NCBI RefSeq assembly: GCF_019977755.1
Contig: NZ_AP025144.1
Span: 310,001-374,000 of the forward strand
Reading direction: 5' to 3'
From: Vibrio penaeicida
GTDB taxonomy: Bacteria; Pseudomonadota; Gammaproteobacteria; Enterobacterales; Vibrionaceae
DNA length: 64,000 bases
Both the position numbers and the translations under genes were made by a program. Below the pieces are notes generated by a model. The model was not told the DNA's origin. It searched no databases and was given only the letters and a program-made list of their open reading frames with translations. The stretch's first letter is position 1. The number at the start of each line of letters is the position of its first letter. Positions 54,220-57,063 of the stretch are shown here, in pieces.

Positions 54220-54295
54220 GCGACACTAGCTCAGCTGGTAGAGCGCAACCTTGCCAAGGTTGAGGTCACGAGTTCGAACCTCGTGTGTCGCTCCA
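54220..54295 (+). tRNA. tRNA-Gly (GCC), copy 1
   Basis: A 76-base cloverleaf with GCC anticodon at 54253-54255 and encoded CCA. Confidence 0.97.
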
Positions 54296-54358
54296 ATTTC
54301 CACTTAGTTTGGAAATGAAAAGCTTTCATCATGCTTTAAATGATGATTACAATACGGA

Positions 54359-54435
<77 letters not shown>

Positions 54436-54467
54436 AATTTAGATTGATTGCTATTGCGATGAATCAT

Positions 54468-54543
54468 GCGACACTAGCTCAGCTGGTAGAGCGCAACCTT
54501 GCCAAGGTTGAGGTCACGAGTTCGAACCTCGTGTGTCGCTCCA
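54468..54543 (+). tRNA. tRNA-Gly (GCC), copy 2
   Basis: Identical to copy 1 in all 76 bases. Confidence 0.97.
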
Positions 54544-54607
54544 AATTCCTTCCCATTTTGGGAAATATAAGCGCTCATCATGCTTTGAATGATGACTACA
54601 ATACGGA

Positions 54608-54684
<77 letters not shown>

Positions 54685-54716
54685 AATTTAGATTGATTGC
54701 TAACGCGATGAATCAT

Positions 54717-54792
54717 GCGACACTAGCTCAGCTGGTAGAGCGCAACCTTGCCAAGGTTGAGGTCACGAGTTCGAACCTCGTGTGTCGCTCCA
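54717..54792 (+). tRNA. tRNA-Gly (GCC), copy 3
   Basis: Identical to copy 1. Followed by a short spacer and another Gly without fMet between. Confidence 0.97.
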
Positions 54793-54841
54793 CTTTCTAG
54801 CAAGAAAGTACAAAAGCTTTTATCGTGCTTAACGATGATCT

Positions 54842-54917
54842 GCGACACTAGCTCAGCTGGTAGAGCGCAACCTTGCCAAGGTTGAGGTCACGAGTTCGAA
54901 CCTCGTGTGTCGCTCCA
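54842..54917 (+). tRNA. tRNA-Gly (GCC), copy 4
   Basis: Identical to copy 1. Confidence 0.97.
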
Positions 54918-54980
54918 GATTCTTTCCCTTATGGGAAATATAAGCGCTCATCATGCTTTAAATGATGATTACAATACGGA

Positions 54981-55057
<77 letters not shown>

Positions 55058-55089
55058 CATTCAGATTGATTGCTACTGCGATGAATCAT

Positions 55090-55165
55090 GCGACACTAGC
55101 TCAGCTGGTAGAGCGCAACCTTGCCAAGGTTGAGGTCACGAGTTCGAACCTCGTGTGTCGCTCCA
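55090..55165 (+). tRNA. tRNA-Gly (GCC), copy 5
   Basis: Identical to copy 1; last intact tRNA of the array. Confidence 0.97.
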
Positions 55166-55184
55166 ATTTTTTCAAAGAAAAAAT

Positions 55185-55250
55185 ACAACCTTACTAAGGT
55201 TGAGGTCACGCCTAGTTCCTTGAAGATCAAGAACCTCGTGTATCGCTCCA
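55185..55250 (+). pseudogene. Broken tRNA-Gly remnant
   Basis: Keeps the anticodon stem CAACC/GGTTG, variable part TGAGGTCACG and the 3' end ATCGCTCCA. The anticodon loop is changed to TTACTAA, a block of about 15 bases sits in the T arm, and the acceptor 5' arm and D arm are gone. A decayed sixth Gly copy. Confidence 0.8.
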
Positions 55251-55417
55251 AATTTCCGCTTGGAAACTAACTTGTTTAGAAACTAAAAGCGTTTAGAAAG
55301 TAAAAATTCTCACTAAAACTGTTAGTGACGATTCTCCCGAAAGGGAATGATGTGAAGACGCATCAACCGCTCTTTATCAATGCTGTGAAGCATTACCCCA
55401 GAAAGAAACAAAACAAT

Positions 55418-55439
55418 CACCCAGTCGGGTGTTTTTTTT
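55418..55439 (+). terminator. Terminator of the tRNA array
   Basis: CACCC-AGTC-GGGTG followed by eight T, 168 bases after the remnant. Confidence 0.88.
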
Positions 55440-55950
55440 CGTTTTCAATTTACAGCTAGTCAACGCCATAAATGGTGCTCAGTTTTCCACTGCTTTTGAT
55501 AAGTATATAGGGGAACGTGCCGCATGTTTACAATTTAGCTAACAGACTTATCCACAATCTATATTCTGTGGATAACTTGGTTGATAAATTGTTTTATTAA
55601 GAAGTTTTGAAAGGATTTGCAAGGATCTTTCTTTTACTTTCGGCGTCACAGCTAAAGATGAAACTCATGTAAGCCTTTGTATATCAAGCGATGAGGGGTG
55701 TTTTTGTTTTTTAGTACATGTAAGAGTTAAGATCATTAACTCATATTTTTTTGATCCTCGTCATTTATTGTGTCTGTGTTTAACTTTTCGTTATCCAGCT
55801 ATCTGTGCTACCAAATTCACTTTTTTCCACATAGAGCACTTTTTGAGAATTACATCAAATTATAGGTACAAATACCGTCTCAGATTTTGAACTTTTAATT
55901 ACAGGAAATAAATTTGGTGGCGTTTTATAAGTGGTTAGTTACATAGGCTA
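55440..55950. promoter_or_regulatory. datA-like DnaA-box cluster between tRNA-Gly array and queG
   Basis: 511 bases without a gene. Two perfect DnaA boxes TTATCCACA face each other: plus strand at 55548-55556 and minus strand at 55567-55575, ten bases apart. A relaxed box TTTTCCACA is at 55823-55831, one-mismatch boxes at 55483-55491 (TTTTCCACT) and 55775-55783 (minus, TTAAACACA). An IHF-like site with one mismatch is at 55682-55694. E. coli datA, which promotes loss of ATP-DnaA, has the same neighbours (glyVXY and queG). Same role is inferred. Confidence 0.6.
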
Positions 55951-57063
55951 CTATGCATCTCTGGGTAGACCCTTTTGGATTATCCTAATTAAGCGCTCTT
56001 TTTTCCTGTCCTTGATGGGTGTTTTTGCCATTTGACTGTCGATTGCCCATTGGATGTGTTCATCTAAATTGTCATCTATTCCAATTCGCTCACGAAGAGC
56101 ATAGACGATACCCTGAGAAAAGGGCGCATTTCCCATCGCGACCGCAATATTTCTCATCCATTGAATGTGACCAATGCGTCGAATCGCAGAGCCTTCCATC
56201 TTTTTCAAAAATTCTTGTTCAGACCAAGATATCAAAGTAATCAGATCGGAAGACCCAAAGGCATCGCGTCGATAAAAGTCGGATTGATCCGTGATGTCTG
56301 CTTCGCGGTTCCATGGACATACCAATTGGCAATCGTCACAACCGTATATCCTGTTACCCATTTTAGCGCGAAGCTCTACTGGGATTTTTCCACTCAACTC
56401 AATAGTTAAATACGAAATGCAAAGTCGAGAGTCGATTACGCCTTCACTTATGATGGCACCCGTTGGGCATGAGGTTATGCATGCCTTGCAGCTTCCGCAT
56501 TGATCGGTAGATGGCTCATCAATAGGCAAAGGCAAATCAATCAACAGTTCACCTAGAAAGAACCAAGAACCGGAGCCTTCATCTAATATAAGTGAGTGTT
56601 TTCCTGTCCAGCCTAATCCAGCTTTCTGAGCTAATGGGCGCTCTAAGAGTGGTGCCGAATCAACAAATGGACGGTATCCAAATTTTCCCGCCTCTTGCTC
56701 TATACGTTGTCCAAGCTTTTTAAGCTGATTGCGCACTAACTTGTGATAATCCCGCCCAAGGGCGTATCGGCTAATGTAACCTTGGGTGGTGTCGTTAAGG
56801 TTACTTGCAAATTGAGCATCTGGAGGAAGGTAGTTCATACGAGCGCTGATCACCCGAACGGTTCCAGGCAATAACTCATCGGGTCTAGCTCGCATCATAC
56901 CGTGTCGAGCCATCCAGTCCATTTCTCCGTGGTATCCTGCATCCAGCCAGTCTTGCAGTGGTTTCTCGTGCTCTTTTAAGTCGACATCGCAAATGCCAAC
57001 TTTCTGGAAGCCAAGTTCTATAGCCCACTGTTTAATTTTGACGGCGAGTTCGGAGTAATCCAT
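55951..57063 (-). CDS. queG: Epoxyqueuosine reductase
   Basis: A 370-residue cobalamin and iron-sulfur enzyme, last step of queuosine synthesis in tRNA. Cluster motifs CGSCKACITSCPTGAI and CDDCQLVCPWN bind two 4Fe-4S. Reads toward the DnaA-box region. In E. coli nnr follows in the same direction toward tsaE; here queG is turned and the interval has no nnr. Confidence 0.96.
   Translation of the reverse strand: MDYSELAVKIKQWAIELGFQKVGICDVDLKEHEKPLQDWLDAGYHGEMDWMARHGMMRARPDELLPGTVRVISARMNYLPPDAQFASNLNDTTQGYISRYALGRDYHKLVRNQLKKLGQRIEQEAGKFGYRPFVDSAPLLERPLAQKAGLGWTGKHSLILDEGSGSWFFLGELLIDLPLPIDEPSTDQCGSCKACITSCPTGAIISEGVIDSRLCISYLTIELSGKIPVELRAKMGNRIYGCDDCQLVCPWNREADITDQSDFYRRDAFGSSDLITLISWSEQEFLKKMEGSAIRRIGHIQWMRNIAVAMGNAPFSQGIVYALRERIGIDDNLDEHIQWAIDSQMAKTPIKDRKKERLIRIIQKGLPRDA

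Follow-up and report, generated by a model that had tools for sequence, protein, structure and literature searches.

Two perfect DnaA boxes face each other in the gap between a tRNA-Gly cluster and queG on contig C1 of Vibrio penaeicida, and the corresponding gap of the E. coli chromosome houses datA. This raises the question whether vibrios possess a counterpart of datA and, if so, which form it takes. With regard to position and conservation, the answer is plain: positions 55536–55831 are a conserved DnaA-box cluster at the E. coli datA position. That this cluster works as a Vibrionaceae variant of datA, serving as a DnaA-ATP-hydrolysing or titrating site, is the reading we consider probable on the basis of the sequence comparisons described below.

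The window, i.e. the whole stretch of 64 kb that was analysed (C1:310001-374000), belongs to a genome of 6.78 Mb in three contigs. The gene order at the locus is orn, five tRNA-Gly and three tRNA-Met genes, the gap, queG, tsaE, an amiB-like gene and mutL; the order in E. coli is identical except for nnr, which sits between queG and tsaE. An earlier note on this DNA had described a gene-free stretch between the tRNA-Gly genes and queG at the E. coli datA location, and both points hold. No ORF of at least 60 aa was found in 55198–55950 and no tRNA gene was called by ARAGORN in 55166–55950; Rfam at gathering score matched tRNAs only and likewise had no match in 55166–55950. Both neighbouring units have their 3' ends towards the element, which is therefore not a promoter of either. 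A reading as queG promoter was accordingly dropped, the element being located beyond the 3' end of this gene. The distance to the origin of replication also resembles that of E. coli, amounting to about 10% of the chromosome in both cases. Here, oriC is located between mnmG and mioC (near C1:4114150-4114440), which places the element about 386 kb away, or 9.3% of C1 (4,134,604 bp, taken as a closed circle). In K-12, box 2 of datA (4,392,744) and oriC (3,925,744-3,925,975) are 467 kb apart, or 10.1% of 4.64 Mb.

Within the tRNA cluster, the tRNA-Met copies (54359–54435, 54608–54684 and 54981–55057) are interleaved with tRNA-Gly and look like initiator tRNAs. The last tRNA gene is followed by a degenerate tRNA-Gly-like remnant (55182–55250), whose first part is missing and which received no ARAGORN call. 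The tRNAs adjoining the element vary among vibrios.

Table 1 Features of the datA-like locus and its flanks, in positions of the window; misfits and mismatches refer to the V. penaeicida copy.
Feature	Position	Strand	Remarks
tRNA cluster	54220..55165	+	5 tRNA-Gly (GCC) and 3 tRNA-Met (CAT); reads towards the element; ARAGORN, Rfam
Terminator-like hairpin and T run	55418..55439	+	After the tRNA unit, ~110 bp before box A; pattern match only
Box-7-like weak DnaA site	55536..55544	+	TAGCTAACA; 12 bp upstream of A; 4 misfits
DnaA box A	55548..55556	+	TTATCCACA; perfect; counterpart of E. coli datA box 2
DnaA box B	55567..55575	-	TTATCCACA, inverted; perfect; offset 19 from A, 10-bp spacer
Weak DnaA box D	55579..55587	-	12 bp after B, same direction as B; 2 misfits
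Conserved GATC island 1	55624..55627		Kept in 58/59 loci
Candidate IHF site	55670..55682	-	TAAGCCTTTGTAT; 2 mismatches to consensus WATCARNNNNTTR
Conserved GATC island 2	55731..55739		GATCATTAA; GATC in 57/59 loci
Conserved GATC island 3	55750..55766		TTTGATCCTCGTCATTT; GATC (55753) in 59/59 loci
DnaA box E	55775..55783	-	TTAAACACA; one misfit
DnaA box C	55823..55831	+	TTTTCCACA; exact TTWTNCACA; counterpart of E. coli datA box 3
queG	55951..57063	-	Converges on the element, 3' end facing it

The number of boxes alone is at chance level, whereas their clustering and conservation are above it. Six TTWTNCACA boxes were found in the window compared to 8.4 expected, which is ordinary. The genome-wide pattern searches, which used TTATCCACA alone and not the wider TTWTNCACA, gave 56 sites versus 66 for the reversed control, meaning that this 9-mer is not enriched. 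Both counts would suit a chance cluster of boxes. However, C1 contains 42 TTATCCACA sites and four places with two perfect boxes at most 300 bp apart, compared to about 0.12 such pairs expected by arithmetic from the counts; these places are oriC (the mnmG-mioC gap), the rppH-mutH gap, the datA-like locus and C1:2272888.

The comparison with related genomes speaks even more clearly. In 99 of 101 Vibrionaceae loci (some species are counted twice in this number, which stems from two overlapping genome sets), the A/B pair is found downstream of queG with at most one changed base; both boxes are perfect in 72 loci and one base is changed in 27. Of these loci, 77 have A and B at an offset of 19 and 22 at an offset of 18, and C follows 262–282 bp after A in all 99, as TTTTCCACA in 88 and as TTGTCCACA in 11. 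The two failing loci show A alone (L058) or B and C but not A (L201). At the genus level, the exact A/B pair is present in 178/196 genomes, in all but one as a single copy (the position next to queG was checked for the fetched loci only), compared to 1/196 for the reversed control. Ten of the 18 genomes without the exact pair were examined; a single base of A or B is altered in nine of them, and B and C are retained in the remaining one. With order and spacing kept to this extent, the possibility of a chance cluster is negligible and was ruled out. Conservation in relatives, by which the earlier note had proposed to judge its idea, thus came out in favour.

We further looked into the individual parts of the element by aligning 69 Vibrio loci, which were reduced to 59 by merging eight near-identical rows and dropping L090 and L091 (misfit in A; both are counted in the 101-locus set). 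The rows were anchored on A, whose presence in 59/59 loci is by construction; they were chosen without regard to boxes B to E or to the IHF column. An occupancy scan without preset positions recovered B and C in 59/59 and E in 58/59 loci at up to one misfit, and D in 58/59 at up to two. B is exact in 57/59 loci and C in 50/59, with one misfit in the other nine; E shows one misfit in 58 loci and two in the remaining one. By comparison, the best of 60 letter-permuted patterns of the exact DnaA box reached 17/59. For D, the position at +12 from B is the best of all offsets tried (mean 1.75 misfits, 59 loci). Pairwise identity amounts to 94–99% for A, B and C, 90% for E, about 80% for D, 80–84% for the GATC islands and 71% for the IHF-like stretch, compared to 30–39% in seven of the eight spacer stretches and 50% in one of 8 bp. 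Besides the two perfect boxes in opposite orientation ten bases apart, which the earlier note had described correctly, the further near-matches it mentioned (D and E) therefore keep their place in relatives, and C adds a third exact box.

Two further parts of the element emerge from these loci. Between A and C, GATC occurs 3.2 times per locus versus 0.73 expected, an excess of more than fourfold, and is fixed at three places. Such sites may have to do with Dam and SeqA or with weak ATP-DnaA sites as known from oriC. The box-7-like site keeps its ACA end in 98/99 loci, and its offset of -12 has the fewest misfits of all offsets from -24 to -9 (mean 2.69, 59 loci); at most two misfits are found in only 26/59 loci, the V. 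penaeicida copy having four.

The possible IHF site of the earlier note stands in part. The occupancy scan yielded a single IHF column, at 55670, with at most one mismatch in 43/59 and at most two in 56/59 Vibrio loci, whereas the copy of V. penaeicida itself is weak. In the permutation control at up to one mismatch, 0/80 permuted patterns reached 43, the best one (42) being placed within the conserved boxes; at up to two mismatches, 6/40 reached the observed 56/59. As a positive control, the same scan found a site with at most one mismatch at A+65 to +67 in 20/23 enteric loci, including K-12. Based on the permutation results, the presence of an IHF site in the Vibrio element is likely, but not secure. 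The genome encodes both IhfA and IhfB.

How closely does this layout follow that of E. coli datA? Both elements are located between the tRNA-Gly cluster and queG and share the extended box 2, ACAGA[G/C]TTATCCACA; the weak site 12 bp upstream of it has a candidate counterpart in Vibrio, with the misfits mentioned above. Furthermore, A and C match the consensus boxes 2 and 3 and, like these, point the same way, with a candidate IHF site in between. The geometry, however, differs: box 2 and box 3 are separated by 162 bp in E. coli and by 275 bp here, and the IHF site at +65 compares to an IHF-like site at +122. In addition, the Vibrio element contains the inverted boxes B, D and E, with a step of 12 bp from B to D, and three conserved GATC islands compared to one GATC in K-12. 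Since the interval lengths of E. coli (65 and 162) differ from those found here, we class the element as a datA variant and not as an E. coli-type datA.

In E. coli, DDAH is described as depending on the IHF site as well as on boxes 2, 3 and 7, and the bend made by IHF is proposed to unite the DnaA molecules of box 2 and box 3 (PMC5742627, PMC5835720). The DnaA encoded in the present genome is identical to E. coli DnaA at R281, R285, L290 and R334, the residues named for this reaction (PMC5742627). The counterparts of boxes 2 and 3, the trace of box 7, the candidate IHF site, the tRNA unit, IhfA/IhfB and these DnaA residues together point to a site that would inactivate DnaA-ATP. Position, kept boxes, the orientation of A and C, the candidate IHF site and the distance to oriC all fit the datA-like interpretation proposed earlier. 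In such a scenario, DnaA-ATP would be gathered on the element and its ATP hydrolysed soon after origin firing. DnaA would be bound at A, along with the weak box that precedes it by 12 bp, and at C, in the orientation of E. coli boxes 2 and 3. An IHF bend between A and C would bring both DnaA groups together, and the inverted B–D array would contribute additional DnaA. Early duplication of the site would then lower DnaA-ATP and delay re-initiation at the oriC of chromosome 1. IHF might be removed by transcription running on from the tRNA cluster, in line with E. coli datA, for which such read-through out of the tRNA-Gly operon has been reported as a prerequisite for IHF leaving (PMC10950094).

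Several observations weigh against the datA reading. The spacings of 122 and 275 bp are unlike those of E. coli, and spacing matters for E. coli datA according to two reports (PMC4585315, PMC5742627). The V. penaeicida copies of the IHF site and of box 7 are degenerate, with two mismatches and four misfits, respectively. The inverted A/B pair resembles DARS; the essential boxes of E. coli datA point one way, an inverted pair being a DARS-type feature (PMC5742627). Moreover, the 46/46 loci from other families of the order described below lack such a pair after queG. For the B–D array, E and the GATC islands, E. coli datA gives no explanation. The B–D array may add DnaA or may make the site partly DARS-like.

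Taken further, this resemblance would make the element a site of the DARS type, at which DnaA is recharged with ATP and A, B and D serve as boxes I, II and III; we regard this as quite improbable. If the boxes are assigned in this way from the sequence, E. coli DARS1 and DARS2 do show the same ordered arrangement (+, -, -), with 12 bp between II and III. The offset from I to II, however, is 14 in both E. coli sites and in this genome's own site upstream of uvrB, compared to 18 or 19 in the 99 loci, where 14 never occurs; the difference is about half a helical turn, and a true DARS core was set aside on this ground. The gene neighbourhood is a different one as well, the element being near neither uvrB (C1:2694856-2696850) nor mutH (after the rppH-mutH gap near C1:3380300-3380900), and the genome has box clusters elsewhere, at the DARS1 and DARS2 positions. 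For V. cholerae, DARS-like sequences have been reported at these two places (PMC6090056) and also appear in PMC8682772.

The counterpart of DARS1, near C1:2697239 upstream of uvrB, reads TTATCCACA-5-GGTGGATAA and has an offset of 14. At the DARS2 position, a box cluster lies between rppH and mutH (C1:3380300-3380830), the core box I of which looks degenerate.

Both likenesses could also be combined in a two-armed datA, an idea we consider speculative and rather unlikely. Facing arrays in 12-bp steps (box-7-like site and A versus B and D), an IHF bend and an arm of E and C with Dam sites would join the same-direction layout of datA to a DARS-like inverted core, and such an element might inactivate DnaA at one stage of the cell cycle and reactivate it at another, depending on IHF or on GATC methylation.

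Another alternative to the datA variant, to which we assign a similarly small chance, is a pure titration site, which would soak up DnaA by the number and quality of its boxes and have no catalytic effect on ATP. The locus does belong to the four spots of C1 where two perfect boxes lie at most 300 bp apart, and PMC12371093 counts in favour of this view. Nevertheless, with two of the 56 perfect boxes of the genome, the element accounts for a small share of them, and titration alone would presumably need neither a fixed order and near-fixed spacing nor an IHF-like column and GATC islands.

Finally, the A/B pair could act on transcription and stop transcripts that run on past the tRNA cluster, either as a road-block or as an RNA hairpin with A and B as its stem. 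The two boxes are indeed inverted copies situated behind tRNA genes, and box 2 of E. coli datA is reported to reduce read-through (PMC10950094). A search for compensated changes in the 99 loci found none, and the hairpin reading was rejected: A or B is changed in 27 loci, never both, leaving a G-U pair in 19 and breaking the pair in eight. Moreover, a terminator-like hairpin is already present at 55418, the boxes persist in those 10 of the 18 named enteric loci that have no tRNA gene within 2.5 kb, and C, D and E are left unexplained. This makes such a role in transcription very improbable.

The datA variant can also be placed among the layouts found in other families. The extended box ACAGA[G/C]TTATCCACA is common to Vibrionaceae, Escherichia, Xenorhabdus, Pectobacterium and two further families (f5 and f11). 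In all 23 enteric loci, comprising K-12, 18 named ones (Escherichia, Citrobacter, Enterobacter, Xenorhabdus, Pectobacterium) and four of a family taken to be Enterobacteriaceae (f19), A is followed by a box in the same direction at 160–164 bp; in one of them (L069), an extra box at 122 bp precedes the one at 163. Families f5 (one locus) and f11 (two loci) share with Vibrio the extended box A and two perfect boxes on the + strand downstream of queG, but their A–C distances of 161, 165 and 165 bp are those of E. coli; an IHF match at +65 is absent from these three loci. Elsewhere in the order, 46/46 loci fetched from the remaining families lack such a pair within 1.2–1.8 kb beyond queG, and five of these loci have tRNA-Gly genes upstream; they belong to a set of 58 hand-chosen loci (54 from 169 genomes with a QueG match and four others). 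From this distribution, the E. coli-type layout looks older and the Vibrionaceae layout would be derived.

Judged from these comparisons, the locus is real, conserved, at the datA position and of its own layout; datA is known from E. coli, and the probable Vibrionaceae form differs from it in geometry. No statement on a Vibrio datA was found in the open-access literature searched; an earlier mention may exist in the original datA publications (2013 and 2017). PMC4585315 describes datA conservation within E. coli. With a conserved counterpart, the inactivation of DnaA by a DNA site becomes open to testing beyond enteric bacteria, and the differing geometry of this counterpart represents a natural experiment on the box spacings and directions that DDAH requires. 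Vibrios are, in addition, two-chromosome cells in which the replication of chromosome 1 also times that of chromosome 2. A reading as crtS was considered as well; this site lies elsewhere on chromosome 1 of V. cholerae. The RctB titration sites of V. cholerae are extra initiator sites near an origin and have been likened to datA (PMC3937223), but they bind RctB and control chromosome 2, whereas the Vibrio element consists of DnaA boxes on the contig that carries oriC.

Two minor observations concern additional boxes. In Photobacterium (L040 and others), 10 of 14 named loci show an extra consensus DnaA box on the minus strand 55 bp after A; no box was recognisable at +43, and the +55 box falls into the register of B (+19) and D (+31), at multiples of 12 bp. 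At C1:2272888-2272910, far from uvrB and mutH, V. penaeicida has a perfect opposed DnaA pair with the DARS offset of 14 (2389-2411 of L123). Its flanking genes were matched in one of six compared loci, and the exact pattern is present in 88/99 genomes of the genus, mostly once.
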